From Hyphomonas sp. CY54-11-8 (GTDB lineage Bacteria; Pseudomonadota; Alphaproteobacteria; Caulobacterales; Hyphomonadaceae), in assembly GCF_000682735.1 (NCBI RefSeq), contig NZ_AWFD01000034.1, positions 1 to 64,000 of the forward strand: a DNA stretch of 64,000 nt, in the 5' to 3' direction. The position numbers and the translations under genes are program-made. Positions 8,415 through 27,162 of this stretch are shown here, piece by piece; positions within the stretch are counted from its first letter, which is position 1; each line of letters starts with the position of its first letter. Under the pieces are notes generated by a model. The model was given only the letters and a program-made list of their open reading frames with translations. It was not told where the DNA came from and did not search any database.

Positions 8415-8553
8415 AATCAGTTTCGAAAGCGTCTTGAAGCGCTGCAATAAGGCCCGTGGGAGATCGCGGGGTCGAGTCACGGATAGCCGTTCGCTCGCGT
8501 AGATCTGACCGAAACTGCGTCTGTTCTGGAGCACACAGGGGAAGATGACGACA

Positions 8554-11346
8554 ATGAGTTTTAGGAAAACATTCAAAAGCGCGATGGCGCGGAGCGTGGC
8601 GGTTGCTGCGATCGTTCTTGCGGCAGCTTGCTCGCAAGGCAGCAGCATTTCATCGCCCGGCGCGACTGATGCGGGTACGCCTCCCGGCGGCAGCACCGGT
8701 GGAACCGGCGGCGGCACGGGATCGGGTGCAACTTGCCCGTCCGGCTTTACCGAAGGTACACCGGTCGGCGGTCTCACGACCTGTAACGTTTCGGGTGCGT
8801 ACCTGACTAATGTCACGCTGACGAATGTCGACGGCATCGCTTATCGCCTGAGCGGCCGTGTTGATATCGGCACCGACGTGGGCGCCGAAGGCAACATTGC
8901 CGGTAGCCAGCCTGCGGTCATGACCATCGAGCCAGGCGTCACCATTTTCGGCGAATCCGGCTCCGACTATCTCGTTGTTAACCGCGGCTCGCAGCTTGTG
9001 GCAGACGGTACAGCTTCTCAGCCGATCATCTTCACCAGCGCGAACGACCTTGAGCGCCAGGCGGACAGCGATCCGTCGAACGACCTCGGCGGCGACGCCA
9101 TTTCCGAGTGGGGCGGTCTTGTTCTTCTGGGGCAGGCGCCGATCAACCGCTGTAAGGACGCCGCGACACCGGCCACTGCCCAATGTGAAAACATCGTTGA
9201 AGGTGTGACCAATCCGGAAGCCGTTTATGGCGGTGCCGACACCACTGACAACAGCGGTGTTCTGGACTATGTGCAGGTGCGTTTCGCAGGCTATGCCATC
9301 AACACGCAAGGCAACGAGCTGAACGGTATCACCTTTGCGGGTATCGGCAGCGGCACGCGCGTCGAAAACATCCAGGTTCACAACAACTCTGATGACGGCG
9401 TCGAGTTCTTCGGCGGTAACGTCAACATCAAGAACCTGGTTCTGACCGGCAACGACGACGACTCCATCGATACGGATAACGGCTATAGCGGCCACATCCA
9501 GTATGCGGTTGTGGTTCAGCGCGCGAACGGCGGTGACAACATCACTGAGGCCTCTAGCGTCTCCTCTTCGGTCGCCCCGCAATCCAACCCGCAGATCTCC
9601 AACTTTACCTTTATCGGTAACCGGACGAATGCTTTCCGCCTCAACACAGGCACCATCGGCCGTTACATGAACGGCGTGGTGAACTACGGTCAGGAATGCT
9701 TCCGCTTTGAACCGAGCGCTGGTAACGGCGTGGCAGGTTTCCAGGCTGGCGAAGACCCGACATTCAACTCTGTCCTGTTCGATTGCGACGGCGGCCTTGC
9801 GACGGCCAACTCCGATGCGGCAGCCGCTCAAGGTGCGGTCGCGGCAGACGCGAACAATGCGATGGTCACTGATACGCTCGCATCCGTCCTGTTCCCGGGG
9901 CCGGCTGAGCTTGGCGTGACGCCGTTCGATGCATCGACTGTGTCGAGTTTCTTCGAGCCAACCTCCTACATCGGTGCCTTCGGTCCGACCGAAACCGTAA
10001 CGAACAACTGGGCCGCAGGCTGGACCTTCGCCCTGTTCCCGGAACCGACTTGCCCAACCGGCACGACCGACTCCGGCTTCGACATCCAAGGCACGACGGT
10101 TTGCCGTCTGTCTGGTCAGATCTCTTCGGATATCCGCCTGACGCGCGGCAATTACTATGAGATCTCTGGCCGCGTGGACGTCGGTGTTGATACGGGCCCC
10201 GATGGAACCGCAACCGGCGGTGTCCCTGCCTCTCTCACCATCGAGTCCGGCGTGACGCTGTTCGGCAATGAGGGGGACGACTATGTCGTGGTGAACCGTG
10301 GTTCGCAGATCTTCTCGAACGGTACCGCTGCCAACCCGGTTGTCTTCACCTCCGAAGCTGACGTGACAGACAGCCAGGTCGATCCGGAAAATGCCATCGG
10401 CGAATGGGGCGGTCTTGTGATCCTCGGAAGCGCCCCGATCAACCGCTGCCGCGATGCCGCGACGCCGGGTTCGGCGCAGTGTGAAAACATCGTTGAAGGT
10501 GTGACCAGCCCGGAAGCCGTTTACGGTGGTGGTGACGCTGCTGACGACAGTGGCTCGCTGGCCTACACGCTGGTGAAGCACGCTGGTTACGCGATCAACA
10601 CGCTGGGTAACGAACTGAACGGCATCACCTTCGCAGGTGTCGGCACCGGTACGGACGTGAACTACGTTCAGGTTCACAACAACTCCGACGATGGTGTCGA
10701 GTTCTTCGGTGGCGGTGTGAACATCAAGCACCTTGTCCTGACAGGCAATGACGACGACTCGATCGACACGGACAACGGCTACAATGGCCATATCCAGTAT
10801 GCGATCGTGGTTCAGCGTGCTGCCGGCGGCGACAACATCACCGAAGCTTCGAGTGTTTCCTCGTCGGTGACCCCGCAGTCTAACCCGATCATCTCCAACT
10901 TCACCTTTGTTGGTAACCGGACGAATGCTTTCCGCCTCAACACAGGAACGATCGGCCATTACCTGAATGGTGTCGTTGACTACGGTCAGGAGTGCATCCG
11001 CTTCCAGGACTCCGCCGGTAACGCCGTCGCGGGCTATCAGGAAGGTGCGGATCCGAAGTTCAGCTCCGTACTGTTCGATTGTGCTGGTGGTCTGGCAACA
11101 GCGGCTGACGATGCCGCCGCCGCCCAGGGCGCCGTTGATGCCGATGCGAACAATTCGACCAACGTTGCAAACACGTTGACCTCGACGTTCATCAACGGTT
11201 CGGCCGAGGCCGCTGTGACGGCAGTCGATCCGGCCACCGTGTCTTCGTTCTTCGACTCGGTGGACTACATCGGTGCTGTCGAGAACGCCCAGGACACCTG
11301 GTGGCAGGGCTGGTCGTGCGGTCTTGAAGCCAGCGATCCTTGCTGA
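8554..11346 (+). CDS. Secreted beta-helix-like lipoprotein with two tandem halves
   Basis: 930 residues. A basic N-terminus and hydrophobic stretch end in LAAAC, a slightly atypical lipobox (Cys26, followed by Ser-Gln). A Gly/Thr/Ser/Pro linker comes next. Two homologous halves of about 435 residues start at 8734 and 10051. Each has motifs of parallel beta-helix proteins (TIEPGVTIFG, VVNRGSQ, IIFTSAND) and an acidic patch (HNNSDDGVEFFGG, NDDDSIDTDNG) that could bind metal. Each half has six cysteines in matching places; the tail has two more (WSCGLEASDPC). AGGGGA lies 11 nt before ATG 8554 but only 2 nt before ATG 8545, so I prefer 8554. It is the first gene before a TonB receptor and type II secretion genes. 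The substrate is unknown. Confidence 0.8.
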   Translation: MSFRKTFKSAMARSVAVAAIVLAAACSQGSSISSPGATDAGTPPGGSTGGTGGGTGSGATCPSGFTEGTPVGGLTTCNVSGAYLTNVTLTNVDGIAYRLSGRVDIGTDVGAEGNIAGSQPAVMTIEPGVTIFGESGSDYLVVNRGSQLVADGTASQPIIFTSANDLERQADSDPSNDLGGDAISEWGGLVLLGQAPINRCKDAATPATAQCENIVEGVTNPEAVYGGADTTDNSGVLDYVQVRFAGYAINTQGNELNGITFAGIGSGTRVENIQVHNNSDDGVEFFGGNVNIKNLVLTGNDDDSIDTDNGYSGHIQYAVVVQRANGGDNITEASSVSSSVAPQSNPQISNFTFIGNRTNAFRLNTGTIGRYMNGVVNYGQECFRFEPSAGNGVAGFQAGEDPTFNSVLFDCDGGLATANSDAAAAQGAVAADANNAMVTDTLASVLFPGPAELGVTPFDASTVSSFFEPTSYIGAFGPTETVTNNWAAGWTFALFPEPTCPTGTTDSGFDIQGTTVCRLSGQISSDIRLTRGNYYEISGRVDVGVDTGPDGTATGGVPASLTIESGVTLFGNEGDDYVVVNRGSQIFSNGTAANPVVFTSEADVTDSQVDPENAIGEWGGLVILGSAPINRCRDAATPGSAQCENIVEGVTSPEAVYGGGDAADDSGSLAYTLVKHAGYAINTLGNELNGITFAGVGTGTDVNYVQVHNNSDDGVEFFGGGVNIKHLVLTGNDDDSIDTDNGYNGHIQYAIVVQRAAGGDNITEASSVSSSVTPQSNPIISNFTFVGNRTNAFRLNTGTIGHYLNGVVDYGQECIRFQDSAGNAVAGYQEGADPKFSSVLFDCAGGLATAADDAAAAQGAVDADANNSTNVANTLTSTFINGSAEAAVTAVDPATVSSFFDSVDYIGAVENAQDTWWQGWSCGLEASDPC
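8734..10050 (+). repeat. First copy of the intragenic tandem duplication
   Basis: Codes for the first half of the lipoprotein (from the CPSGF segment). Long stretches are nearly identical at DNA level to the second copy, for example the segment coding CENIVEGVT (9184-9210 against 10480-10506) and that coding HNNSDDGVEFFGG. Confidence 0.85.
10051..11346 (+). repeat. Second copy of the intragenic tandem duplication
   Basis: Codes for the second half of the lipoprotein (from CPTGT). It keeps all six cysteines of the first copy in register, with small deletions relative to it (for example in the loop after FTSEAD), and ends with an extra two-cysteine tail. Confidence 0.85.
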
Positions 11347-11362
11347 TCGCGGCAATCCATAC

Positions 11363-11384
11363 GGCGGGCGCTTCGGCGCCCGCC
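11363..11384 (+). other. Strong intercistronic hairpin with TTCG tetraloop
   Basis: A 9-bp GC stem (GGCGGGCGC / GCGCCCGCC) closed by TTCG, starting 17 bp after the lipoprotein stop. The downstream bases (acttatgatttta) are not a clean T-run, so it may be an inefficient terminator or an mRNA-stabilising element that lets the lipoprotein be made in excess over the receptor. Confidence 0.65.
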
Positions 11385-11468
11385 ACTTATGATTTTATTG
11401 CGGCCCGAGCACGATGCGAAAGCAAACCGAAGCCGGGCCGGTGCCGCAGGTAACAAAGGTCCAGGAAG

Positions 11469-14072
11469 ATGAAATTCCATCACATCTCAAATTCGATCCT
11501 GTCGACGACGGCGCTGGCACTCATTCTCGCAGCGCCGGCTGTCGCTCAGGAAAACACTGAAACGGAACAACCCGAGGAAGCGCGCCAGCTGGAAACTGTC
11601 GTCATCCGCGGTGAGTACATTCCCGCCCCTCAGCGCGAGACTTCGCAGGTCGCCAGTTTCCTTGGGGCAGAAGATCTCGCCCGTCAGGGTGACTCAAACG
11701 CCGCTCTGGCCCTGACGCGTCTCAGCGGTCTCAGCGTTGTGTCCGGAAAGTTCGCCTATGTCCGCGGTCTGGGCGACCGCTACTCGGCAGCGCTTCTGAA
11801 CGGTTCCCCGCTACCAAGCCCGGAGCCGCTGCGCCGTACTGTTCCTCTGGACCTGTTCCCGTCGAATATTCTTGACGGGGCCGCTGTTCAGAAAACCTTC
11901 TCGGTTCAATACCCCGGCGAATTCGGCGGCGGCATGATTGACCTGAAAACGCTGCGGATGCCGCGCGACAATTTTTTGAACCTCAAGGTCGGTGGCACGT
12001 GGAACACCGCTACGACGGGTAAGGAAGGCATCTACGTAAATGGCGGCGATTACGATTGGCTCGGTTATGACGACGGCCTTCGGGATATTCCCGGTCCGCT
12101 TGCTGCAGTTCTGTCCTCCGACCAACGTCTGAGCAGCTATACCGCTGACGAAATCGAGGCCGTCGGTGAAAGCCTGGTGAATTCGCCGCTTTCCGTGATT
12201 CAGAATGGTGATCTTGGCCCGAACTTCGAAGGATCCGTCGATGGTGGCATGTCTTTCGACGCAGGCGACTTTGAAATCGGGCTGGTTGGCGTCGCCGGTT
12301 ACGATCAGGAATGGCAAACAAAGGATGCGGTGCGTCAGTTCGTGCAAGGCGACGTGCTGGGGTCGGATTTCCGGACGTTCTCAACCAACCTGACGGCGAC
12401 CGTCAATGCGCTGGGATCGGCGACAGCCGAATGGACCGATGGTGAAGTGCAGGGCACCCTGTTCTATGTTCACTCGACCTCCAAAGAAGCCCAGATCAAC
12501 GAAGGTAAAGACTTCAACGCGCAGGGCAGCACGGGTCTGGTTCATGATGAATCGTCCGGCTGGTTCGAGCGTGGTCTGACATTTGGTCAGCTTCGTGGTG
12601 AGCACTATTTTGGTGACCTGACCTTCTCCTGGCGCGGCTCAATGGCACAATCCACGCGGGATGCGCCGTATGAGCGGTCGCTTCGCCGTTTCGTGGATGA
12701 TGAAGGCAACATTCTCTATTCGGTCGCTAACAGCTACGACATTCGCTTCTCCGAACTGACGGATGACAATGTCGCTTATGGCGCTGACCTGAAATACGAG
12801 ACTACGATTGATGGCACGCGCGAAGCGATCATCTCCGGCGGCTTCGATTCTTCGAGCACGGACCGTGACTACGAGTTCCTCGCATTCCGGTTCGCCGGCG
12901 GTAACTCGCTGCCGCTGGACGTCCAGATGGCCCGTCCGGACTATCTATTCTCGCCGGATAATATCGATCCTGCGCGGTTTGTGCTGCAGGAAGTGACCAC
13001 GCCGAACGACTCCTACTCTGCGGGTCTCGACGTCGTGGCCGGTTACGTTCAGGCGGACCTGGAACTCTTCCCGTTCATTCGCACCACAGTTGGTGCGCGC
13101 TATGAAACGGCGGAAGAAACCGTGCGGACGTTCGACCGTTTCGGTAACCCGGGGGCTGGAGATGTAAATCTCGAAAACGATTACGTCCTTCCATCCGCGA
13201 CGTTTACCTGGAACTTCGCTGACGATCTCCAACTGCGTCTCGGATACTCGCAGACAATTGCGCGTCCGCAGTTCCGTGAACTCGCCTTGTCGAACTATTT
13301 CGATCCGGAAACCGAGCGGTCCTATCGGGGCAACAGCGGCCTGGTCGACAGTGAGCTTAAGAACTATGACGCCCGCCTCGAATACTATCTTGGCCGGAAC
13401 GAGTTCATTACGATCGGTGCATTCCACAAGGAAATCAAAAACCCGATCGAAGAAGTTCAGTTCTCGACGTCTACGTTCGTGTTCGAAACGACGTTCATCA
13501 ACTCGCCGAAGGCTGTTCTGTCCGGTGCCGAGCTGGAATATCGTACGCGCTTCAACATGCCGATTTCCAATCCCTGGTTCGATGATCGCGACTGGCTGTT
13601 CTCGGCCAACTATACCTACACCTCTTCAGAGGTGCAGGCGGGGGAAGGTGATCAGGTTTTCGACCCGATTTCCCGTTCGTTGCGTGATGCCTCGCTGTAT
13701 AATCTCGACGGATCAAAGCTTCAGGGTACGCCGGAAAATATCGCCAACATCCAGTTCGGTTGGGAAAGCAATGTCGAGCAGATGACCCTGCTTCTCGGTT
13801 GGGTGGATGATCGTATTCTGCAACGCGGGCTGGATCAGCCTGGTGCGGAATTGCCCGATATCATTGAGGATCCGGGCGTCCAGCTGGACCTTGTCTACCG
13901 TCGTGATTTCACCGTCGCGGGGCGGGAATTCACACTGGGGCTGAGCGGCCGTAACCTGCTGGATCAGGCTCATGAAGAATATCAGTCGAACGCCAATGAC
14001 CTCGGCCGGACTGAATTCAACACCTATGACCGGGGCCGCAGTCTGTCGGCCAGCGTAACTCTGCGCTTCTGA
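11469..14072 (+). CDS. TonB-dependent outer-membrane receptor
   Basis: 867 residues. A signal peptide (about 1-26, ending APAVAQE) is followed by a TonB-box-like LETVVIRGE. The plug domain (about 55-200) contains VRGLGDRYSAALLNGSPLPS, VPLDLFPSNI and the QYPGEFGGGMIDLKT segment typical of a large TonB receptor subgroup that shares this RGLGDRY signature. A 22-stranded barrel follows, ending SASVTLRF with a C-terminal Phe as expected for BAM targeting. It follows the lipoprotein gene by 122 bp in the same direction and is closed by a strong terminator. The substrate cannot be read from the sequence. Confidence 0.92.
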   Translation: MKFHHISNSILSTTALALILAAPAVAQENTETEQPEEARQLETVVIRGEYIPAPQRETSQVASFLGAEDLARQGDSNAALALTRLSGLSVVSGKFAYVRGLGDRYSAALLNGSPLPSPEPLRRTVPLDLFPSNILDGAAVQKTFSVQYPGEFGGGMIDLKTLRMPRDNFLNLKVGGTWNTATTGKEGIYVNGGDYDWLGYDDGLRDIPGPLAAVLSSDQRLSSYTADEIEAVGESLVNSPLSVIQNGDLGPNFEGSVDGGMSFDAGDFEIGLVGVAGYDQEWQTKDAVRQFVQGDVLGSDFRTFSTNLTATVNALGSATAEWTDGEVQGTLFYVHSTSKEAQINEGKDFNAQGSTGLVHDESSGWFERGLTFGQLRGEHYFGDLTFSWRGSMAQSTRDAPYERSLRRFVDDEGNILYSVANSYDIRFSELTDDNVAYGADLKYETTIDGTREAIISGGFDSSSTDRDYEFLAFRFAGGNSLPLDVQMARPDYLFSPDNIDPARFVLQEVTTPNDSYSAGLDVVAGYVQADLELFPFIRTTVGARYETAEETVRTFDRFGNPGAGDVNLENDYVLPSATFTWNFADDLQLRLGYSQTIARPQFRELALSNYFDPETERSYRGNSGLVDSELKNYDARLEYYLGRNEFITIGAFHKEIKNPIEEVQFSTSTFVFETTFINSPKAVLSGAELEYRTRFNMPISNPWFDDRDWLFSANYTYTSSEVQAGEGDQVFDPISRSLRDASLYNLDGSKLQGTPENIANIQFGWESNVEQMTLLLGWVDDRILQRGLDQPGAELPDIIEDPGVQLDLVYRRDFTVAGREFTLGLSGRNLLDQAHEEYQSNANDLGRTEFNTYDRGRSLSASVTLRF

Positions 14073-14079
14073 TCTCTTT

Positions 14080-14114
14080 GCCGCCGCGGTGTTCCGGCGC
14101 CGCGGCGGCTTTTT
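14080..14114 (+). terminator. Rho-independent terminator after the TonB receptor
   Basis: GCCGCCGCGG (14080-14089) and CCGCGGCGGC (14100-14109) form a 10-bp stem with a 10-nt loop, followed directly by TTTTT. It separates the receptor unit from the type II secretion operon. Confidence 0.9.
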
Positions 14115-14527
14115 CTGACAGCTACTGAGAAAACATCGGCTTTCTCATAAATATCTGTAACTTGCGTCACAAAAGTACGAAATATCTCATGTAAACGAAC
14201 GACCTGAAGGCGGTACTCCGGCGACTGGCCGGGTCTCTGCCTTGTCCGGTTTATCGCAGACTTTGAATGTCAGCGGATCTACACTCAAGGGCGCCAGGTG
14301 GCAGGATGTATGCAGGGAGAGTTTGCGTTTGGGGCATTCCCGGCACATTGCATAGGTAACCTGCAAAGCTGTCGAATGACTCTCCTGAGAGTTGTGCAGA
14401 GATCCCTTTACGGGAGTCAGGACGTTCATGTTGGTGGTTGAGCCTGTAGAATGCAGGCGCCAGATCTGCCCGGTGAGATTGGTTCGCCGTTCGGATTTTG
14501 GGTGAAAGGACGTGGAAGTTGAGTGAG
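14115..14527 (+). other. Non-coding region upstream of the type II secretion operon
   Basis: About 410 bp with no convincing gene on either strand. An inverted repeat TGAGAAA / TTTCTCA (14126-14132 and 14141-14147) lies in an AT-rich stretch. The gsp operon promoter must be here, but I cannot fix -35/-10 elements with confidence. Confidence 0.5.
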
Positions 14528-15421
14528 ATGGCTGGACTTGGTGATCGGACGGGATTGTCTGTGGCCGATTTCGGGCGTCTGCTTTTGCGGAGCGCAGGCC
14601 CCCTTATTCGCGTTGCTGAAATCTGCCTGATAGCCTTGATTGCCTTCATCTTGGCGCGCCTGGTCTGGATCGCCGTCGAGCCTGGTGGCGCTGTGATGGG
14701 TGTTCAGCCCATGGGGGATGTTTTCCGTCAAGCACCTGGTGGTGGTGATGCGCCGGCATTGTCGGGGAATATGTCGCTCCTGACGACCCTCGACCCATTC
14801 AACAGGGGCGGCGTCGTTGCCGATATTGTTCAGGAAGCCCCTGAAACGAAGCTTAATCTCGTTCTCAAAGGGGTTCGCGCTTCTGCAAATGGCACGGGTG
14901 TTGCGATGATCGTGATGCCGAACAACCGGCTGAGCATTTTTGCGCCTGGTGAAACCATTCTCGATGGAGTGGTGTTGGACCGCGTTTATGGAGATCGCGT
15001 GACATTGCGTAAGGATGGCCAGATCGAAGCGCTGCTTATGTCCAGTGGTGCAGACAGGTTGTCTGTCCTGTCTTCTCCCGGCGATATCAAACCGAACACC
15101 TCGGGTGGCGGTCAGGCGGCAAGCGATGACCTGATCAGCACAACGGCCACGGACTTCCTTGCCAATCTCGTAATCAATCCGGTTCATCGCGGATCGGATT
15201 TCGTCGGATACGAAATCGGCAGCCGGGGCGATGCTGCGCTGCTTGAGCGTTCCGGGTTGATGCCGGGCGATATTGTGCTGTCGGTGGACGGGGTGTCGGT
15301 CGGTGCCACTGCCCCCGGCGAGCTTGCGATGAAGCTTTCCTCATCCAGAAAAGTCCGTCTCAGAATTGATCGCGATGGCCGACAGGTCGACCAGATATTC
15401 ACGCTGCCGGAGAACCCGTAG
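14528..15421 (+). CDS. gspC: Type II secretion protein GspC
   Basis: 297 residues. One N-terminal membrane segment (about 29-49, LIRVAEICLIALIAFILARLVWI), the periplasmic homology region (about 90-160, LVLKGVRASANGTGVAMIV) and a C-terminal PDZ domain (GYEIGSRGDAALLERSGLMPGDIVLSV). GspC links the inner-membrane assembly platform to the secretin and takes part in substrate recognition. I prefer ATG 14528 over an in-frame TTG ten codons upstream. gspD begins 3 bp after its stop. Confidence 0.88.
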   Translation: MAGLGDRTGLSVADFGRLLLRSAGPLIRVAEICLIALIAFILARLVWIAVEPGGAVMGVQPMGDVFRQAPGGGDAPALSGNMSLLTTLDPFNRGGVVADIVQEAPETKLNLVLKGVRASANGTGVAMIVMPNNRLSIFAPGETILDGVVLDRVYGDRVTLRKDGQIEALLMSSGADRLSVLSSPGDIKPNTSGGGQAASDDLISTTATDFLANLVINPVHRGSDFVGYEIGSRGDAALLERSGLMPGDIVLSVDGVSVGATAPGELAMKLSSSRKVRLRIDRDGRQVDQIFTLPENP

Positions 15422-15424
15422 CTT

Positions 15425-18861: not shown

Positions 18862-20069
18862 TGGCCGCCTTCGAATATGTTGCACTTGATGCCGAAGGAA
18901 AACGCCGATCAGGCATAATCTCCGCAGACAGTGCGCGGTCAGCCCGCAAGGAACTGCGACTGCGTGACTTGATGGTCTTGAATGTGGACCCCGTCGCGGA
19001 AAAGCAGTCCAAGACTGTCGTTCGCCGTGGCCGGCTCAGCGACAAGCAACGCGTGCTTCTAGTCCGGCAATTGTCTGTGTTGCTCAAGTCCGGTCTGGCT
19101 GTGGAACAGGCGCTTGGTGCATGTGCAGGCAACGAAAACCCTGTCAGCGTACAAAAGGCTGTCCACACGGTTCGTGCGGATGTCGTTGAGGGCGCTCGAT
19201 TGTCAGAAGCCATGGCGTTAGTGCCGGATGCGTTCCCCCCACTCGTCCGTGCTGTTACAGCGGCAGGTGAGATGTCTGGCCAATTAGGCGAGATCATGGA
19301 GCGCCTCGCGACCTATCTGGAGCGCAGCTATCAGCTGCGCCAGAAAGTCCGCGCCGCGCTGATTTATCCCGCGCTTCTGACCGTCATGGCAATGGGCATG
19401 GTCATTGCGCTCATGGTGGTCGTGGTTCCGCGGCTCGTGGAACAGTTCGATTTGTTCGACGCTCAGCTGCCGCTCCTGACGCGAATTGTGATCGGCCTAT
19501 CCAATGGTGTGCGGGAATACGGATTGATCATCCTGTTAGTTCTTGCTGCGCTCGTGTTCCTGGGCGCGCGCCTCCTGCGCCAGCCCGCCATGCGGCGCAG
19601 TCTGGACAGGTTTGTTCTCCGACTGCCCTTGATTGGTTCTCAGACACGTACGGTTGCCGCTGCACGCTTCGCCCGCGTCTTCGCAACCTTGTCGGCTTCT
19701 GGTGCAACAATTCTGGAGGCGCTTGAAGGAGCAAAGGGCGCCGCCAATAACACGGTCATCGCTGATGCGACGGACTTCATCGCTGAAAGAGTTCGTGAGG
19801 GCGGATCCTTATCCAGCGCCTTGTCTGCTACGGGAGTTTTTCCGCCGATGATGGTGCATATGGTCACCAGCGGTGAAGCGGGCCGCGATGTTTCCGGCAT
19901 GATGAACCGGGCCGCAGACTTTCTCGATACAGAGTTCGAAACGGGATCCGCCGCGCTGCTGGCGCTGGCAGAACCACTTATTATCGTGCTGATGGGGGGT
20001 ATCGTCGGGCTGATCGTGATGTCGATCATGCTACCGATCCTCCAGCTCAACACGCTCGCCATGTCATAG
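18861..20069 (+). CDS. gspF: Type II secretion inner-membrane platform protein GspF
   Basis: 402 residues with two repeated cytoplasmic helical domains (about 60-165 and 260-370) and three membrane helices (about 168-195, 215-238, 370-395), the standard GspF/PilC layout. It starts MAAFEYVALDAEGKRRSGII, a common GspF opening. It connects the ATPase to the pseudopilus. It sits one base after gspE in the operon order. Confidence 0.95.
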   Translation: MAAFEYVALDAEGKRRSGIISADSARSARKELRLRDLMVLNVDPVAEKQSKTVVRRGRLSDKQRVLLVRQLSVLLKSGLAVEQALGACAGNENPVSVQKAVHTVRADVVEGARLSEAMALVPDAFPPLVRAVTAAGEMSGQLGEIMERLATYLERSYQLRQKVRAALIYPALLTVMAMGMVIALMVVVVPRLVEQFDLFDAQLPLLTRIVIGLSNGVREYGLIILLVLAALVFLGARLLRQPAMRRSLDRFVLRLPLIGSQTRTVAAARFARVFATLSASGATILEALEGAKGAANNTVIADATDFIAERVREGGSLSSALSATGVFPPMMVHMVTSGEAGRDVSGMMNRAADFLDTEFETGSAALLALAEPLIIVLMGGIVGLIVMSIMLPILQLNTLAMS

Positions 20070-20080
20070 GAGACACATTC

Positions 20081-20527
20081 ATGAAACCAATCAGGAAGAT
20101 TGCCAGACCCCGCCGCCCCAAGGATGCCGGCTTTTCCCTGGTGGAGCTTATGGTGGTTATCTTCATCATGGGCCTGCTTGCGACCCTGGTGATCATCAAC
20201 GTCGCGCCCGTGGGCGAACAGTCACGCGTCGGCAAGGTCCGTGCGGACATCGCCGCATTTGAAAGTGCGCTCGAAATGTACAGCCTCGACATGTATTCCT
20301 ATCCGAATGCGGAGGCCGGTCTTGCGGCACTCAAGAAACCGCCGGCGGGTGCGGACATCGCGACATACCGGCCGGGTGGATACGTCAAGCGGTTGCGTGA
20401 TGATCCCTGGGGGAACCCATATCAATACGATGTCCCGGGACAGCGTTCGGGTGGAGCCTACGACGTCTATTCGTCCGGACCGGACGGCAAGGCGGGCACG
20501 GCGGACGATATCGGCAACTGGGAATAG
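20081..20527 (+). CDS. gspG: Major pseudopilin GspG
   Basis: 148 residues. A 17-residue basic prepilin leader ends at Gly, followed by FSLVELMVV with Glu at +5. The C-terminal calcium-binding loop (GPDGKAGTADDIGNW) and the conserved WGNPYQY segment identify GspG. It is processed by GspO and polymerises into the pseudopilus. It has its own SD-like GGAGAC 11 bp after gspF. Confidence 0.95.
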   Translation: MKPIRKIARPRRPKDAGFSLVELMVVIFIMGLLATLVIINVAPVGEQSRVGKVRADIAAFESALEMYSLDMYSYPNAEAGLAALKKPPAGADIATYRPGGYVKRLRDDPWGNPYQYDVPGQRSGGAYDVYSSGPDGKAGTADDIGNWE

Positions 20528-20535
20528 GCGGTCTT

Positions 20536-20988
20536 TTGTACAGTATCACGCATCGGGATAGCGGCTTCTCCCTCGTGGAGATCATGGTCGCCCTGTTCAT
20601 CATGGCGCTTGCGAGCGCCATGGTGGTGATGGTGATGCCATCACGGCCTGATGCTTTGGATGCTGAAGCTGATCAATTCGACAAGCTGATGACCCGCACG
20701 CTCGATCAGGCCATCAGCCGGGGGCAGGCGCAGGGCATTCGCATCGAGGAGAATGCCTACACGGTTTATACGCGTATCAATGGCCGCTGGGTGCCGGTGG
20801 AAGCATCGAGCCGTCGCGCGTCCGGAGGCGTGACCATCAGTATGCAGGGTAAATCAAACGCGAAATCAGATGAAGCACTTCCCCAGATTGTCATGGATGC
20901 TTCCGGTATCGTGTCCGGCCCCGATGTGCGTTTTTCCAAAGGTGTCCGGACCCGCGACTTCGAACTGCCGTGGCAGCCAAGCCGATGA
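20536..20988 (+). CDS. gspH: Minor pseudopilin GspH
   Basis: 150 residues. A 10-residue leader ends DSG, then FSLVEIMVALF with Glu at +5. The only plausible start is TTG at 20536, with AGGCGG five bases before it; no in-frame ATG or GTG precedes the cleavage motif. The rare start may keep this minor pseudopilin at low level. The stop overlaps gspI (ATGA). Confidence 0.88.
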   Translation: MYSITHRDSGFSLVEIMVALFIMALASAMVVMVMPSRPDALDAEADQFDKLMTRTLDQAISRGQAQGIRIEENAYTVYTRINGRWVPVEASSRRASGGVTISMQGKSNAKSDEALPQIVMDASGIVSGPDVRFSKGVRTRDFELPWQPSR

Positions 20989-21347
20989 CAGATCGTGGTT
21001 TCACCCTGGCTGAAGTTCTTGTGGCGCTGGTTGTGTTTTCCATCGCTGCCATCGGACTCGCCCATCTGGTTACGGAAACAACTGCCAATGCCGGGCATAC
21101 GCGAAGTTTGTCGCTGGCCCGCATTGAAGCGGACAACCGATTGGTTGAGGCCGTCTCTGACCCGGCCGTGCTCCGGGCCGGGTCTGGATCAGGAGAGAGC
21201 ATCCAGCGTGGCCAGTCATTTGACTGGGTGCGGGAAATCGAGATCCGTGACGAAAACGGTCTCGCCGGAATTCGTGTGACTGTCTCAGACGCGGCGACGG
21301 GTCAGCGACTCGCAATGCGGGAAACGTTGGTACAGGTGAGACCATGA
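20985..21347 (+). CDS. gspI: Minor pseudopilin GspI
   Basis: 120 residues. Short leader MTDRG then FTLAEVLVALVVF with Glu at +5. ATG 20985 forms an ATGA overlap with gspH and gives a normal leader; a GTG five codons upstream is also in frame but less likely. With GspJ and GspK it forms the pseudopilus tip. ATGA overlap with gspJ. Confidence 0.9.
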   Translation: MTDRGFTLAEVLVALVVFSIAAIGLAHLVTETTANAGHTRSLSLARIEADNRLVEAVSDPAVLRAGSGSGESIQRGQSFDWVREIEIRDENGLAGIRVTVSDAATGQRLAMRETLVQVRP

Positions 21348-21910
21348 AGCACGATGCGGGTTTCACCCTTATCGAGATGCTGGTGGCTCTGGCGCTGACC
21401 TCGATGATTGCCGTTGCAGGATCAACTCTGCTGATCGGAACGGTGAGGGCATCTGACAGGCTCGGGAAAACGACAGAAAGCGTCAGCGAAATTGAACTGA
21501 CCCACACGCTGATGCGGGACGATTTTGCAAACATCCGGATGCTGTACGGAGATGCTGGTCAGCCCGACTATACGTCCTCGCCGTTCGTCGCCTTTGTGCG
21601 TGACGGCTGGAGCCATCCGGTTCCAGATGACAATCGCGCGTCATTGCTGGCGGTCGAATATCAGTTCCGGGACGGTACGCTGACGCGGCGCGCCTGGCTC
21701 CGCCCAGATCCGGCCGCTGATACACCTCATGCGGATCGCGTGCTTGCCACGGGATTGTCCCGCATGACAGCGCGATATTTCGATGGCCGGGAATGGGTGC
21801 CTGAATGGAATGCGGGCGAAAAGGATATGCCAGCGGCCATTGAATTGACCTTTGAATACTCGGACACGGATGCGTTGACCGAACTCTTCCTGATCGGGGG
21901 AGGTGGCTGA
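21344..21910 (+). CDS. gspJ: Minor pseudopilin GspJ
   Basis: 188 residues. Leader MKHDAG, then FTLIEMLVALALTSM with Glu at +5, followed by a beta-rich GspJ domain (LMRDDFANI, a common GspJ motif). It is part of the I-J-K tip complex. It overlaps both flanking genes. Confidence 0.9.
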   Translation: MKHDAGFTLIEMLVALALTSMIAVAGSTLLIGTVRASDRLGKTTESVSEIELTHTLMRDDFANIRMLYGDAGQPDYTSSPFVAFVRDGWSHPVPDDNRASLLAVEYQFRDGTLTRRAWLRPDPAADTPHADRVLATGLSRMTARYFDGREWVPEWNAGEKDMPAAIELTFEYSDTDALTELFLIGGGG

Positions 21911-22887
21911 TGCGCAAGATCGACAAGGAGAAGGGAGCAAGCCTCCTGTCAGTCCTCGTAATCGTCATGTTGATGTCTGTGGCTGCGATTGCCGCGACCG
22001 ACGCGCTTGCCCGGTCTGTCCTCATCATCAAGTCTTCTTCCGCGAGGGCGGAGATATTCTGGACGGCTCGTGGCGCCGCGGATGCGGCTGCGACTTACCT
22101 CACAAAAGCATTGGAGATGAATGAGGGTGCCCTGAACAGTGAGTCTGAATTGTTCGCTCAAACTATCACCCTTCCGGCTGGAAATGGTGTGGTCGTGGTT
22201 CAGGCGAGGGAAGCCTCCAATTGCTTCAATCTGAATGCGCTCTTCAATAGCGCGGGTGATGGTGAAGTCAGCGACGCATCGCTTCAGGCGTATGATGACT
22301 TGCTTGTCGCGGCTGAGTTTGACGACGCAGAGGCAGAATCTCTGGCCCAGAAACTGGCCGACTGGATCGATTCCGACTATTCCACCCGTACCTATGGCGC
22401 AGAAGATGGATACTACGCATCTCAGGCCGAATCTTATCGCGCCGCCAACACAAAACTGCGAAGCGTCAGCGAGCTCAAAGCCATAGCAGGATATGATCCG
22501 GAAGTTTTCGCAAGGATTGAACACCTCGTTTGCCTGCGTCCGGAACAGGAGCAATCCGTACTCAACATAAATACATTGAGCCTTGAACAGGCGCCGCTTC
22601 TTGTTGCGCTATATTCGCAAGAATTATCCCTCGATGATGCCCGAGCATTGATTGACTCCCGTCCTGCCGGCGGGTGGTTGAGCAAAGAGGGCTTTATTCA
22701 GCAGGACGCTGTCATGAAGATTGCACCAGACGCCCGAAATGACATGGTGCTCGCGCTTGCGTCGGACTATTTGTCAGCGGACATCAACATCGGGACGGGC
22801 GATCTGATCACGAATTACCAGGCACTTTACCGGCGGTCGGAAACCGGAAACGTGGCCCTGGTTTCAATGGTGCGGAGGGAATTCTAA
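21910..22887 (+). CDS. gspK: Minor pseudopilin GspK (tip subunit)
   Basis: 325 residues. The leader ends KEKG, then ASLLSVLVIVMLMSVAAI without Glu at +5, as is normal for GspK, which caps the pseudopilus. A large alpha-helical domain follows, with the conserved CFNLNALF (after about residue 90), LADWIDSD and KLRSVSEL motifs. It overlaps gspJ and gspL by one base each. Confidence 0.92.
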   Translation: MRKIDKEKGASLLSVLVIVMLMSVAAIAATDALARSVLIIKSSSARAEIFWTARGAADAAATYLTKALEMNEGALNSESELFAQTITLPAGNGVVVVQAREASNCFNLNALFNSAGDGEVSDASLQAYDDLLVAAEFDDAEAESLAQKLADWIDSDYSTRTYGAEDGYYASQAESYRAANTKLRSVSELKAIAGYDPEVFARIEHLVCLRPEQEQSVLNINTLSLEQAPLLVALYSQELSLDDARALIDSRPAGGWLSKEGFIQQDAVMKIAPDARNDMVLALASDYLSADINIGTGDLITNYQALYRRSETGNVALVSMVRREF

Positions 22888-23990
22888 TGGCGCGCCATCT
22901 CATCGCTCTTCTTCCTGCGAATGGTCAGCCATGGCGGTTCGCGGTCATTACTGCCGGCGCGGTGACCTTGTTGTCGCCACAGGAGACAGCCGCAAGTTCT
23001 GACGAGGTGACGGTAATTGTGCCGGCAACGGAGGTAGCAATTTCCACAGTGCGCCTGGTGGGCGCCCGTAAGGCTGATTGGTTGCGGACGGCACGTTTTG
23101 CGGTCGAAGACGATATAGCCGTGCCAGTCGAGGGACTGCATGTTGCGATCGACCAGCACCGGAATTCCACCGGAAAAGGCACGGTGTGCATGGTGGCGCG
23201 ACCGGTCATGGAAGACTGGATGCGCCGTCTGTCAGAGGCGGGACTGGAGGATGCCCGTCTCGTACCCGATGTCACCTTGCTCAAGGCCGGATCGGCGCCT
23301 TTGGAAATTGGTGATCGCATCCTCGTTGCTGGAGAGGACAAGCCGTTCGCGATTGATAAATCCCTACCGTCGGAGCTCGTCTCCGCGCTGATGCAGCGCG
23401 CTGGGGCAGAGCCAGAGCATGCTGACGATGCGTTGCTTGCACTCGCGCGTCGGTTTGCGGCAGGTAATGCTGGCATCGACCTGAGACAGGCTGACTTCGC
23501 ACGCAAAGCCGAATTGCCGATAGACCTGAAACGTTTCCGTCTCCTGGCCGGTCTCGCTGCAGCTTGTGCCTTGGCGTGGGGCGTCTACACGTTTGCCAGC
23601 ATTCGTTCCATGAACCAACTGGAAGCCGTGCTGGATCGTCAGACGCGGGCAAGCTTCACTGCCCTGTACCCGGGAGAGCCGGTGCCGTCGAACATACTTG
23701 CTGCGGTCCGCGAGCGCTCCAGTGGCACCCAAAGGCCTGCTGCAGGGTTCAGGAAAATGGCAAGTGTGCTCTATGCAGCGCTGGCAGATGAGGAAGGTGT
23801 TCGCCTCTCCAGCCTTCGCTACGATGCCGATGCAGGACAGTTGCAGGCGAAACTTGTCTACAGCGCCTTTGGCGATGACGAGACACTCAAGAATGCAATT
23901 GAGGCTGGCGGTCTGTCTGTCCGGCTTGGAGATGCGCGGGTGGAAGACGGCCGAGTCGTTGGCGACATGATACTGGAGCTGGCATCATGA
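22887..23990 (+). CDS. gspL: Type II secretion platform protein GspL
   Basis: 367 residues. A cytoplasmic actin-like domain (about 1-205), a single membrane helix (about 212-232, RLLAGLAAACALAWGVYTF) and a periplasmic ferredoxin-like domain. It recruits GspE to the membrane and pairs with GspM. Sequence similarity to GspL is low in the N-terminal part, but position, size and topology agree. ATGA overlap with gspM. Confidence 0.88.
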   Translation: MARHLIALLPANGQPWRFAVITAGAVTLLSPQETAASSDEVTVIVPATEVAISTVRLVGARKADWLRTARFAVEDDIAVPVEGLHVAIDQHRNSTGKGTVCMVARPVMEDWMRRLSEAGLEDARLVPDVTLLKAGSAPLEIGDRILVAGEDKPFAIDKSLPSELVSALMQRAGAEPEHADDALLALARRFAAGNAGIDLRQADFARKAELPIDLKRFRLLAGLAAACALAWGVYTFASIRSMNQLEAVLDRQTRASFTALYPGEPVPSNILAAVRERSSGTQRPAAGFRKMASVLYAALADEEGVRLSSLRYDADAGQLQAKLVYSAFGDDETLKNAIEAGGLSVRLGDARVEDGRVVGDMILELAS

Positions 23991-24460
23991 CGGAGTACTG
24001 GTCCACACGTTCTGTGCGTGAGCGCCTGCTGATTGTTCTTGCTGGATTGCTTGTTGCGGTCCTGCTCGCCAATCTGCTTGTCGTGCAGCCATTGCGCGCC
24101 GCGAAAGAAAGTGCGGCGGCATCGCTCGCCTTAGCCTCCAGAACACTTGATGCGGTAACCGCAGCCCGGCCGGTTGCCAATGCTGGAACGGCATCCGGGG
24201 TGTCTGCTGTTGAAGGGCAGGATCTGCGTTCAAGGCTGGTCGAACTTGCCGCTCAGCGAGGCATATCGGTTTCCCGGCTCCAAACGAGCGAACGCGGCGC
24301 CATCATAATTCAGTTCGACCAGGTGTCGGTGCAGCCCTTGTTTGCCTGGCTGGAAGCCGCCGAACGTGAACTGGGGGCTGAACCGGCTCAGGCATCTGTA
24401 TTTGCTGATACGGCCGGCACAGTTCGCGCCAGTTTCGAATTCCGAGGAGGCGCGTTGTGA
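23987..24460 (+). CDS. gspM: Type II secretion platform protein GspM
   Basis: 157 residues. A short cytoplasmic start (WSTRSVRERLL), a membrane helix (about 13-33) and a periplasmic ferredoxin-like domain ending ASFEFRGG. It partners GspL. Strong SD GAGGAGG near its 3' end serves gspN. Confidence 0.9.
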   Translation: MTEYWSTRSVRERLLIVLAGLLVAVLLANLLVVQPLRAAKESAAASLALASRTLDAVTAARPVANAGTASGVSAVEGQDLRSRLVELAAQRGISVSRLQTSERGAIIIQFDQVSVQPLFAWLEAAERELGAEPAQASVFADTAGTVRASFEFRGGAL

Positions 24461-25200
24461 TGCGGAAATCGTTGCTTCTCATCGTATTCGCCGGCGTTTT
24501 TGTCGTTACCTTGATCGCCAGCGCGCCCCTGTCGTTCGTCCTGAAGCGGACGGGTATCGTGGAGCAGGGCGTTTCCTGGCAGCAAGCACGCGGTACCGTG
24601 TGGCACGGTCAGGTCACGGGGCTGGCTGTGCACGGCGATGCTGTGGGCGCGGTTCAGGGTGATTTCAGTCTCATGCGAATGATCCGAGGGCAGCCGGGTC
24701 ACCTTCTCCGCTGGAGCGGTCCCTCCGGACAGGGCTCCGCACTCGCAGCGCTATCGGGTGACCAAATTCTGATCCGGCAAGGACGTGCAATGGTCATGTT
24801 CGATGCGGCGCGCATCTCTTCTCTGTTTCCGGCGCAGGAAGTTTCACTGCGCCTGTCAAATATGTCGATCGAAGCGACGGCGGATGGCTGCCGGACCGCG
24901 AGCGGTAAAGTAAATACGGATGCGCTGTCCAGAATTTCTGCCGTTTACGGAGCGAACTGGCCCGATCTTGACGGAGTGCTGTCCTGCGCGGATGGAGATC
25001 TGGTCGTCTCGGTCGAGGGCCGCGCAGCAGACGGAACTCGCATCTCAGCGAGATCTTCCCTGCAGGGCAACGGCCGGTTGGAGCTTTGGGACGTGCCCGA
25101 GAATCAGACGAATGCTCTTCTGCTTGCCGGTTTCACCAACGAGGCGGGCCGGTTTGTCTACATGCAGCAATTGTCGAGCGGGGAAACGTCCAGTGAATAA
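24457..25200 (+). CDS. gspN: Type II secretion protein GspN
   Basis: 247 residues. An N-terminal membrane anchor (about 5-25) and a periplasmic domain with the GTVWHGQVTGL motif typical of GspN. Its role is non-essential or poorly defined in known systems. Either GTG 24457 or ATG 24460 could be the start; GAGGAGG lies 6 or 9 nt before them. It overlaps gspM and the next gene. Confidence 0.85.
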   Translation: MMRKSLLLIVFAGVFVVTLIASAPLSFVLKRTGIVEQGVSWQQARGTVWHGQVTGLAVHGDAVGAVQGDFSLMRMIRGQPGHLLRWSGPSGQGSALAALSGDQILIRQGRAMVMFDAARISSLFPAQEVSLRLSNMSIEATADGCRTASGKVNTDALSRISAVYGANWPDLDGVLSCADGDLVVSVEGRAADGTRISARSSLQGNGRLELWDVPENQTNALLLAGFTNEAGRFVYMQQLSSGETSSE

Positions 25201-25660
25201 GACCCTCCTTCTTTCCGGGTTCGTGTTTCTTGGCGCCTGTGCCTCGTCGGGTACTGCGCAGGTACCGGATACACCTGCGGCTGCACCTGAAGCGGCTGTG
25301 ACCTCATTGCCAGCCCAGACTCTGGAGCCCGGTACGTGCGGTCTGTTCCTGTGGTCGCGTGACGAACCCCGGCACTTCGTTCTGTTCTATCCGGCGGGGG
25401 ATCCCACGGCTGAAGCAATCGTCGATGGCCGCCGGCAAACGCTGAATGTCGATTCGCAGGATGGCGATGTTTTTGGACAATTTCTGACCCGGATGGCGTT
25501 TAGCAGGCCGGATGGCAATCCGGTCATGTTGACCCTGACCCCCGGAGAAGAGATCGAAGGCGGGCGCCGCGTGCCGCTGGCGCGAATGATTTATAACAAT
25601 GCGGATGGATGGGAAATCATAACACCGCTTACAGGATTGACTGCTTGCCAGCCTGAGTGA
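25193..25660 (+). CDS. Small lipoprotein of unknown function ending the type II secretion operon
   Basis: 155 residues. The GTG start at 25193 overlaps the gspN stop and gives MNKTLLLSGFVFLGAC, with a perfect LGAC lipobox (Cys16). After an Ala/Pro linker comes a compact beta-rich domain with two cysteines (TCGLFLWSRDEPRHF ... LTACQPE), probably a disulfide. I do not recognise the family. Its place as the last operon gene, and the absence of another pilotin-like gene, make it a candidate accessory or pilotin for the secretin, but that is inference only. The frame is also open upstream inside gspN, which I take as chance. Confidence 0.75.
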   Translation: MNKTLLLSGFVFLGACASSGTAQVPDTPAAAPEAAVTSLPAQTLEPGTCGLFLWSRDEPRHFVLFYPAGDPTAEAIVDGRRQTLNVDSQDGDVFGQFLTRMAFSRPDGNPVMLTLTPGEEIEGGRRVPLARMIYNNADGWEIITPLTGLTACQPE

Positions 25661-25719
25661 CATCCTGTTTTCTGTAATAACTACTACAATACACAAATAA
25701 TCCATTATATTGGATCGTA

Positions 25720-25752
25720 TTGACACATAAGCGTCACAATGCGTAATGTGAC
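25720..25752 (+). promoter_or_regulatory. Candidate promoter with GTCACA-N8-TGTGAC palindrome
   Basis: TTGACA (25720-25725) and TAATGT (25744-25749, 18-bp spacer) resemble a sigma-70 promoter. The inverted repeat GTCACA (25733-25738) / TGTGAC (25747-25752) overlaps the -10. Transcription would begin at about 25756, at or next to the likely ATG 25757 of the CAP gene, giving a leaderless mRNA. Confidence 0.4.
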
Positions 25753-25756
25753 GGTT

Positions 25757-26581
25757 ATGTTACATCGTGCCTCCAAAATTCTGTCCGTTTCGGCGCTGGC
25801 CTTTGCGGCCCTGAGCGGTCCTTCCTTCGCAGAAGCAAATTCTGCCTGCGACCTTTCCAATGGGTACGCCATCACACCGACGGCATTCCAGCAGGAGGCG
25901 AATGCCTGCCTGAAGGACATCAGCGGCGTCGAGGCTGATGCCGTGATGGCGGATCAGCTGTTCCGTCTGGCGGGCGAACAACGTGCCAGTCAGGGCGAGT
26001 CTGAGCTGCGGATGCTCAGCTCCCTGAGCGAAGCGGCCCGGCTGCACGCCTACGATATGGCGGTGCGGGGGTATGCGTCTCACGAAGACCTGGAAGGCCG
26101 CACCCACCTTGACCGGGTCCGCATGATGGAGCGCAGCGCTCTGATCGGTTCATTCGGTGCAAACATCGTCATCGTGAAAGCGGGTGCTTCTCCCGAAGAT
26201 GTCCAGAAGGTCATCATGGCGGATGAGGCCAATGCTGCAAACGTGGAGCGGGATGAGTTCGACCACATGGGTGTCGCTGCTGTCGAGGCAAACGGTGTGC
26301 TCTACGTCGTGCAGCTCTTCGCTCGCGTCGATGGACAGCTCAACACGCCAGTCCCACTCGTCGCTGCGCCGCGCACAAATCTGGCTGCGAATTATAATGA
26401 TCAGTTCGAACCGGTGGGCTGGTCCGTGGTCTCGGCCACTGGTGAAACCCTGATGCGCGGCATCGGCAGCAAAATGCCTGCTTCGGTGCCTGAGATTTCC
26501 GAAGGGTTCATCCAGATGGACGTGGAAAGCAATAACAGTATCTATACGCTGAGAGGCCCTGCCATCTCCTCATCGCTCTGA
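25757..26581 (+). CDS. Secreted CAP/SCP-domain protein
   Basis: 274 residues. Signal peptide (MLHRASKILSVSALAFAALSGPSFAEA) then a CAP (cysteine-rich secretory protein-like) domain with conserved ASQGESELRML, AARLHAYDMA and HEDLEGRTHLDRVR segments, and FDHMGVAAVEANGVLYVVQLFA at its end. The C-terminal part (about 205-274) is an extra beta domain. An ATG six codons upstream (25739) is possible but lies inside a palindrome and likely promoter. It sits between the gsp operon and gspO, so it may be a secretion substrate. Confidence 0.82.
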   Translation: MLHRASKILSVSALAFAALSGPSFAEANSACDLSNGYAITPTAFQQEANACLKDISGVEADAVMADQLFRLAGEQRASQGESELRMLSSLSEAARLHAYDMAVRGYASHEDLEGRTHLDRVRMMERSALIGSFGANIVIVKAGASPEDVQKVIMADEANAANVERDEFDHMGVAAVEANGVLYVVQLFARVDGQLNTPVPLVAAPRTNLAANYNDQFEPVGWSVVSATGETLMRGIGSKMPASVPEISEGFIQMDVESNNSIYTLRGPAISSSL

Positions 26582-26607
26582 GGTAAGTCTCTAGACATAT
26601 TCCAATT

Positions 26608-26634
26608 CGCCCGGGCCCTGTGCCCGGGCGTTTT
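26608..26634 (+). terminator. Rho-independent terminator after the CAP gene
   Basis: CGCCCGGGC (26608-26616) and GCCCGGGCG (26622-26630) form a 9-bp stem with a 5-nt loop, followed by TTTTCGTTT. It means gspO needs its own promoter or readthrough. Confidence 0.88.
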
Positions 26635-26697
26635 CGTTTCGGAGGGATGCTTCTATGCTGCAGGCTGGATGTCGCAGCGGCAAAGGGGCAGGCGTTC

Positions 26698-27162
26698 ATG
26701 ACAACCGACATGTTGCTCTGGGGCGTGGTGCTCCTGCCGGCATTGGCGGCGCTCACCTGGATAGACATACGCACTTTGCGCTTGCCTGACGCGCTGACTC
26801 TTCCACTGATCGGTGCTGGCCTCGTCCAGTCATGGTATTTTACCGGAGACGTCTGGATTGCACTGATCGGAGCGGCAGGCGGCTATGTTTTCTTTCTGGG
26901 GATCGAAAAGGGCTACCGGGCGTTGCGCGGTCGGGATGGTCTCGGCCGCGGGGATGCGAAGCTGCTTGCGGCGGGCGGAGCGTGGTGCGGCTGGATCGGT
27001 CTTCCATGGATCGTGCTCATTGCGAGCGGCTCAGGACTTGCCTTTGCCGGGGCGCTCACACTGATGGGGCGCCGGCCTGACGGCATGATGCCTTTCGGTC
27101 CGTTTCTGGCGCTCGGGATAGGTGTGGTCTGGCTGGGACAATTCAGGTTGGTGTGGCTCTGA
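26698..27162 (+). CDS. gspO: Prepilin peptidase GspO (minimal A24 form)
   Basis: 154 residues. A membrane aspartate protease of family A24 with first catalytic Asp in WIDIRTLRLPD and second in GRGDAKLLAAGGAW (GxGD motif). Five or six hydrophobic segments. It lacks the N-terminal zinc/methyltransferase domain of full-length PilD-type enzymes, so it should cleave the G-H-I-J-K leaders without methylating them. ATG 26698 (MTTDMLLW) gives a sensible membrane start; an upstream in-frame ATG at 26647 has GGAGGG directly against it and would add 17 odd residues. Confidence 0.88.
   Translation: MTTDMLLWGVVLLPALAALTWIDIRTLRLPDALTLPLIGAGLVQSWYFTGDVWIALIGAAGGYVFFLGIEKGYRALRGRDGLGRGDAKLLAAGGAWCGWIGLPWIVLIASGSGLAFAGALTLMGRRPDGMMPFGPFLALGIGVVWLGQFRLVWL

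Follow-up and report, generated by a model that had tools for sequence, protein, structure and literature searches.

The locus in the window

The window, which is positions 1 to 64,000 of contig NZ_AWFD01000034.1 of Hyphomonas sp. CY54-11-8 (a 3.9-Mb assembly of 38 contigs), carries a gene for a large lipoprotein, a gene for a TonB-dependent receptor (TBDR) and the genes of a type II secretion system (T2SS). Open reading frames (ORFs) and Pfam and NCBIfam matches place these on the + strand in the order lipoprotein, TBDR, gspC to gspN, a small ORF, a gene for a CAP-domain protein and gspO, which bears out the consecutive order described in an earlier note on this DNA. It had been proposed there that the T2SS displays the lipoprotein at the cell surface, where it would capture a ligand for the receptor. 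Comparison of related sequences indicates that the conserved unit is the lipoprotein-TBDR pair, not the T2SS. The main features are the following.

8396..8544, + strand: conserved promoter/leader block of the lipoprotein gene (four-relative alignment)
8545..11346, + strand: ElpS-family lipoprotein, 933 amino acids (aa), two beta-helix repeats (ORF, alignment, predicted structure)
11363..11384, + strand: hairpin 3' of the lipoprotein gene with a weak T tail (hairpin search)
11469..14072, + strand: TBDR of the Cc0171 family, 867 aa (Pfam/NCBIfam barrel and plug)
14080..14109, + strand: strong hairpin resembling an intrinsic terminator, located 3' of the TBDR gene and before the T2SS genes (13 pairs, T5 tail)
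14498..15421, + strand: gspC (Pfam T2SSC, 63 bits)
15425..24460, + strand: gspD, E, F, G, H, I, J, K, L and M, contiguous
24457..25200, + strand: gspN (Pfam T2SSN, 59.8 bits, cut-off 29.6)
26620..27162, + strand: gspO, prepilin peptidase (Pfam Peptidase_A24, 66 bits)

The lipoprotein had been assigned 930 residues from position 8554, which is an alternative ATG of the 933-aa frame. The true start of gspO may be an internal ATG near 26698. Within the T2SS genes, gspD lies at 15425-17377 (+), and its product (516 bits) and GspG (132 bits) exceed the curated NCBIfam cut-offs of 351 and 89. GspC, GspN and the peptidase are recognized by Pfam. The ATPase and the remaining components are identified by gene order and homology, gspE, F and H-M being named by position and by same-order homologues in relatives, without individual scans. 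In this sense the T2SS set is complete in the window, and this part of the earlier description as a complete T2SS operon stands. Two genes (the small lipoprotein-like ORF and the CAP gene) separate gspN from gspO. Transcription of the pair probably does not continue into the T2SS genes, because the terminator-like hairpin with its five T residues is followed by ~390 bp without a gene before gspC; a single long operon from the lipoprotein gene to gspO is considered unlikely on the same grounds.

Pairing, exchange and occurrence of the lipoprotein and receptor genes

The arrangement is not new in kind. In Caulobacter crescentus, elpS (cc0170), cc0171 and gspC-N follow each other in the same order as in the window, an order also reported for Hyphomonas (H. 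neptunium), Sphingomonas and Xanthomonas, and an interaction between ElpS and Cc0171 was proposed in the same paper (Le Blastier et al. 2010, PMC2996285). Any novelty of the gene order or of the functional interaction was rejected for this reason. ElpS is described as having a lipobox at residues 17-20 and a cleavage site before Asn38 (PMC2996285), and the ElpS type was recognized here by this published signature and by gene order, not by a named record. Cys20 and an Asn at residue 38 occur in lipoproteins from the genus of genome G049 (loci L199, L216, L217, L219 and L220; re-fetched as L225-L228) and in L200 and L201 of another genus. In L225-L228 the lipoprotein gene is followed by a TBDR gene and by gspC onwards, with gspO reversed as published for Caulobacter. 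Each window repeat is 34-35% identical to the ElpS-type lipoprotein of L225 (E about 1e-57), and the window TBDR is 37% identical to the L225 receptor. Because signature, gene order and identities agree, the window locus, with its order lipoprotein, TonB receptor, gspC-gspN, is a further member of the published ElpS-Cc0171-T2SS arrangement, and lipobox and homology identify its lipoprotein as an ElpS-family member. It differs from the Caulobacter locus in two respects: the lipoprotein has two beta-helix repeats in 933 aa, whereas ElpS-type genes encode one in about 520 aa, and gspO lies on the same strand as the other genes instead of being reversed.

Among 61 related genomes, the window's own included, 56 carry the lipoprotein gene, and a TBDR gene lies directly downstream of it in 55 of 55 testable cases (one is at a contig edge). 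T2SS genes are found near the lipoprotein gene in 41 of 54 testable relatives, 35 downstream and 6 divergently upstream; 13 have none there and 2 are at edges. The lipoprotein homologues are not usually found away from both receptor and T2SS genes, the outcome that the earlier note had named as speaking against its proposal. In a scored choice of the best 80 of 543 confirmed loci, the TBDR gene is directly downstream in 75 of 78 testable loci (2 of the 80 are at an edge), and T2SS genes are nearby in 30 of 65 testable ones. Two of the three exceptions to receptor adjacency, L122 and L147, probably reflect reading frames drawn too long, while L161 is genuinely non-adjacent. Seven of 21 plasmid records were inspected: five have a TBDR gene immediately 3' of the lipoprotein gene, one (Aureibacter, Bacteroidota) has it on the upstream side, and one has none nearby. 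Alpha- and Gammaproteobacteria carry the pair, and outlying cases come from Bdellovibrionota and Bacteroidota.

The two genes have also been inherited together. Over 65 loci with all four genes, using the last 440 aa of the lipoprotein, pairwise distances correlate at 0.931 between lipoprotein and TBDR, at 0.556 between lipoprotein and GspD, at 0.639 between TBDR and GspD, and at 0.91 between GspD and GspE. Within the genus (32 loci) the lipoprotein/TBDR correlation is 0.978 vs 0.633 for lipoprotein/GspD. Five loci from close relatives (L058, L059, L060, L062 and L065) encode GspD proteins 87-92% identical to that of the window, but their lipoproteins are 37-39% and their TBDRs 36-37% identical. 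The left border of DNA similarity falls near an upstream helix-turn-helix gene, at window position 8279 in three loci and at 8275 in L062, L065 being cut off by a contig edge. Similarity returns inside gspC, at 14816-14829, in each of the five, and between the borders there are short patches only. As judged from these borders, the pair and the start of gspC were exchanged in a single piece, whereas the adjoining T2SS was retained. Altogether, adjacency, distance correlations (0.93-0.98 vs 0.56-0.63) and joint exchange support the view that lipoprotein and receptor form an evolutionary unit, exchanged together, and lend indirect support to the uptake pair postulated in the earlier note.

Linkage to the T2SS is more variable. 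On a FastTree phylogeny of 133 receptors, from which 4 duplicate loci and all rows shorter than 650 aa were omitted, T2SS linkage takes 18 changes, at least 15-16 of them forced by well-supported branches. In a sample of 80 Caulobacteraceae genomes, 29 carry the lipoprotein (a very weak match in G366 was left out), and all 29 have TBDR homology in its 1.5-kb flank. GspD over cut-off is present in 24 of the 80, with the lipoprotein in 13 and without it in 11 (p 0.04). Sixteen lipoprotein-bearing genomes have no GspD over cut-off, and 14 of these, all with TBDR homology in the flank, have no T2SS-grade secretin at all; absence of the T2SS was judged by GspD in these 14, G357 is only 63% complete, and G298 and G349 (secretins of 311-317 bits) were not counted among them. 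Neither GspD over cut-off nor a GspG match is found in G038, G046 and G054 (all three of the Phycosocius group), G053 and G204, and the lipoprotein is carried without a T2SS-grade secretin in G038, G046, G054 and G204. The converse case is given by G039 and G047, which have GspD and no lipoprotein. In a class sample of 240 genomes (a weak lipoprotein fragment in G089 left out), the lipoprotein is detected in 6, of which 5 have GspD, and GspD in 31 (Fisher p 1.5e-4, not corrected for kinship); because a single repeat of the window protein served as query, more distant members may have escaped detection.

Predicted fold of the lipoprotein and phosphate-related signals

Searches of Pfam and NCBIfam at E 0.1, and of the Protein Data Bank (PDB) by single sequence at E 1, return no match for the window lipoprotein; the TBDR of the window has no PDB sequence match at E 0.01. 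The lipobox Cys29, invariant across an alignment of 30 sequences that includes the window protein, is followed by SQGSSISSPG and a Gly/Pro-rich linker, and then by two tandem repeats that are 66% identical over 437 aligned positions. An AlphaFold2 model built from an alignment of 30 sequences, one from the window and the others from 29 fetched loci (mean predicted local distance difference test score, pLDDT, 86.3; predicted template modelling score, pTM, 0.83; first 59 residues of very low confidence) predicts two tandem right-handed beta-helices. Structures matched by the model are the phage tailspike 6w4q (Z 21.8), NosD 7o0y (Z 21.4) and AlgE4 (Z 20.7). Foldseek also retrieves PL6 alginate lyases (best E 6e-5), with TM-scores that are low over the whole two-domain model (0.12-0.18 among the first matches). 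Such a fold search cannot separate beta-helix families from one another, and folds missing from the matches may still apply. The repeat number in the lipoproteins of relatives is one, two or three; apparent three-repeat proteins of about 1170-1360 aa are encoded at L087 (6142-10212), L115, L118, L123, L149 and L157.

A motif C-x(6-9)-SPG starts at the lipid Cys in 101 of 139 distinct proteins (a looser regular expression gave 104, from which three spurious ones were removed) and is kept also in T2SS-less genomes. The remaining 35 include N-terminally cut genes and an Alteromonadales type in which CGGDIN follows the lipobox instead (L126, L128, L134, L135, L140, L141, L150, L152, L153 and others). 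Because of this replacement, the motif seems to go with lineage and not with the T2SS.

In logic the pair resembles SusD/SusC, in which a surface lipoprotein likewise stands beside a TonB receptor. No SusD/SusC family model is among the Pfam and NCBIfam matches of the window pair, however: the lipoprotein is modeled as a beta-helix, in agreement with the SusD-unrelated beta-helix binder suggested earlier, and the receptor matches TIGR01782 at 209 bits, below the cut-off of 310, and otherwise generic plug and barrel. The PusCD pair of Bacteroidetes is a phosphate-related TonB/lipoprotein pair of the SusCD family, to which the window pair has no match. Lipoprotein-assisted TonB uptake beyond glycans is already known from BtuG/BtuB of Bacteroides, in which the surface lipoprotein acts as a lid on a TonB receptor for a small molecule (PMC10404256); this pair is like that of the window in logic but differs in ligand (vitamin B12) and phylum. 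No functional study of Cc0171 after 2010 was found in the full-text literature searched, a coverage that leaves out most subscription journals.

Several observations connect the family with phosphate. A Pho box with the consensus CTGTCAT-N4-CTGTCAT (score of at least 11 of 14, within 300 bp before the estimated start), is found on the coding strand in 50 of 127 lipoprotein upstream regions and on the other strand in 9. Permuted half-sites (up to 150) give a mean of 2.5, the three highest values (36, 20 and 15) being rotations of the true site, and the signal is confined to the 4-nt spacing, other spacings giving 2 to 11. The boxes, 22 of which lie 142-165 bp before the start, occur at 19 of 58 T2SS-linked, 25 of 44 unlinked and 4 of 12 edge loci. 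A Pho box before gspC (4 of 69 at a score of at least 11, vs 0.65 for permuted half-sites) was dropped as a claim, the cases being too few. In the window, ~150 bp before the lipoprotein gene, from about 8396, are largely invariant in four relatives, with divergence upstream of this block, which opens with an imperfect TTACAT/TTACAA direct repeat at 11-bp spacing. One GANTC (CcrM-type) site, GAGTC at 8474, is the same in the four relatives. The Caulobacter elpS promoter is reported to contain four GANTC sites with MucR- and PhoB-dependent methylation, and elpS induction to be PhoB-dependent (PMC5172544). The Caulobacter T2SS has been placed in the PhoB regulon (PMC11208175), while its production was called constitutive in the 2010 paper (PMC2996285).

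Gene neighbors point in a similar direction in some Alteromonadales. Alteromonas macleodii pBGP9 carries, one after another, phoB, phoR, pstS-like, oxygenase, lipoprotein, TBDR, DUF3450, ExbB, ExbB, ExbD and TonB genes, with PhoB, PhoR and PstS exceeding NCBIfam cut-offs, and in two Pseudoalteromonas records a TonB set immediately precedes the pair. Among the 80 named loci, as judged solely by resemblance to these Alteromonas genes, TonB/ExbBD sets are present at 6, all of which lack T2SS genes, and phoB/phoR/pstS-like genes at 8, of which one has just phoB. Pfam matches of 20 flanking proteins from ten loci with T2SS-less pairs in relatives include no phosphorus families. The same scan gave a solitary gspN directly after the receptor gene (L044:8259-9122, genome G044) and a solitary gspC directly before the lipoprotein gene (L083:8204-9001, genome G037); in both genomes GspD is on another contig.

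Interpretations of the pair and of its T2SS neighbor

The locus bears on how aquatic bacteria bring scarce phosphorus compounds across the outer membrane. The reading favored here, which we put at somewhat better than an even chance, is that an ElpS-type lipoprotein and a Cc0171-type receptor form a phosphate-starvation-linked, TonB-powered unit for phosphorus acquisition, with surface exposure that does not depend on the T2SS. The lipid-anchored double beta-helix would bind or present a phosphorus-containing ligand to its own receptor, having reached the surface without the T2SS, as reported for ElpS and as may hold in the window, and the receptor would import this ligand in a TonB-powered manner. 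The neighboring T2SS, probably transcribed separately, belongs in Caulobacter to the reported PhoB regulon and is needed there for lipoprotein release; it would also export phosphorus-mobilizing enzymes. In the best-supported account the T2SS is a recurrent but dispensable neighbor of the pair, co-regulated with it in Caulobacter. The reading builds on what the comparisons show, namely the family, the pairing, the co-inheritance, the exchange as a unit, the existence of carriers that lack a T2SS, and the enrichment of Pho boxes in relatives.

A number of observations weigh against this phosphorus-uptake reading. The window lipoprotein promoter has no canonical Pho box (best score 10 of 14, not significant), so PhoB control in the window would be extrapolated from relatives. 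Shuffled labels average about 40 changes on the receptor tree vs the 18 found, meaning that T2SS linkage is clearly clustered and that the T2SS is more than a chance neighbor. Many invariant lipoprotein residues are acidic, which fits a metal site or a cationic ligand better than bare phosphate, the structure matches are polysaccharide-active enzymes, tailspikes and NosD, and a Marinobacter plasmid carries the lipoprotein with no receptor nearby. Further points come from the Caulobacter data reported in PMC2996285: cc0171 was expressed alike in rich and poor medium, T2SS genes were expressed in both and 1.7-fold up in poor medium, intracellular phosphate was unchanged on the shift to poor medium (in an assay that the authors call insensitive), and the increase in secreted phosphatase activity on ElpS overproduction fits an enzyme or activator role equally well.

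That the acylated lipoprotein arrives at the surface by way of a GspN-type T2SS and there serves the receptor, with T2SS-less lineages using another route, is rather unlikely in our judgment. It stays a live rival because, in the alphaproteobacterial samples, GspN over threshold occurs only in lipoprotein-carrying genomes. Roberts et al. (2025, PMC12802150) showed for Acinetobacter and Klebsiella that GspN acts in the transport of lipoproteins by the T2SS. Of the 240 genomes in the class sample, exactly 4 have GspN over cut-off, each of them with the lipoprotein, and five others match below it; among GspD-positive genomes GspN over cut-off accompanies 4 of 5 with the lipoprotein vs 0 of 26 without (Fisher p 1.6e-4, not kinship-corrected), although the one-repeat query may have overlooked distant lipoproteins. 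In the relatives it is over cut-off in 47 of 52 genomes with lipoprotein and GspD, 0 of 4 with lipoprotein only and 0 of 2 with GspD only. In Caulobacteraceae with GspD, a profile built partly from this family, with at most 32 candidates scored per genome, matches in 7 of 13 lipoprotein-positive vs 0 of 11 negative genomes (p 0.006), which leaves 6 of the 13 with no GspN detected. The only GspN found in G044 sits directly behind the TBDR, with a like placement in L119, and T2SS genes recur on either side of the pair, as the 41 of 54 relatives with 6 divergent cases illustrate. Like the T2SS/GspN lipoproteins InvL and PulA (PMC12802150), the window lipoprotein has Ser/Gly-rich residues after the lipid Cys, one of the types reported there, and gspN among its T2SS genes. 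However, the same C-x(n)-SPG motif is kept where no T2SS is present, the ElpS family, unlike InvL/PulA, occurs in T2SS-less genomes, and GspN may merely mark a T2SS clade that shares the locus by descent. Most directly, ElpS was reported to remain proteinase-K accessible at the surface in a gspC-N deletion of Caulobacter, whose T2SS includes gspN, the T2SS being needed for release (PMC2996285). The citation of ElpS as a T2SS-dependent surface lipoprotein in the earlier note does not agree with this report. Display by the T2SS as a general and obligatory mechanism was rejected on the same result and on the carriers without a T2SS-grade secretin (the 14 Caulobacteraceae genomes, G038, G046, G054 and G204).

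It is also conceivable, though improbable, that the lipoprotein acts as an enzyme or activates one (a surface polymer that bears phosphate could be the target), with the receptor importing or sensing the product and no stable binder-receptor complex being formed. The fold matches PL6 alginate lyases, epimerases, polygalacturonases and phage depolymerases, the acidic invariant residues would suit such a role, and overproduced ElpS raised secreted phosphatase activity (PMC2996285). A beta-helix match does not by itself demonstrate catalysis, however, and no Pfam or NCBIfam enzyme family matches the lipoprotein. A purely historical neighborhood, in which a diversifying surface cassette (under phage or toxin pressure, for example) occupies a recombination-prone place beside the T2SS, would explain the exchange of the pair between conserved flanks, but nearness to the T2SS has come back in distant groups and with changed orientation, and Pho boxes are repeatedly found across the family, making this explanation very unlikely.

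The 2010 proposal of joint action by ElpS and Cc0171 gains comparative support from near-constant pairing, cassette exchange, Pho boxes and a TonB complex in some Alteromonadales, and the T2SS question becomes separable from the pair. The co-occurrence with GspN bears on whether GspN-type T2SSs are lipoprotein exporters in Alphaproteobacteria. A wider claim, that the pair represents a widespread, uncharacterized class of lipoprotein-assisted TonB uptake dedicated to phosphorus, with a specificity cassette exchanged between species and an alphaproteobacterial gspN-bearing T2SS specialized for its lipoprotein, is offered tentatively and is doubtful as a whole.

Two further genes lie between gspN and gspO.

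25193..25660, + strand: small lipoprotein-like ORF with a GTG start (ORF call)
25739..26581, + strand: CAP-domain protein with a signal-peptide-like N-terminus (Pfam CAP, 35 bits)

A longer form of the small ORF had no match in a Pfam scan. In twelve single-repeat relatives (L069, L072-L075, L077, L079-L081 and L084-L086), a CAP homologue lies divergently upstream of the lipoprotein gene. Because CAP homologues thus also adjoin the lipoprotein gene elsewhere, it may be guessed that the CAP-domain protein is a T2SS substrate.

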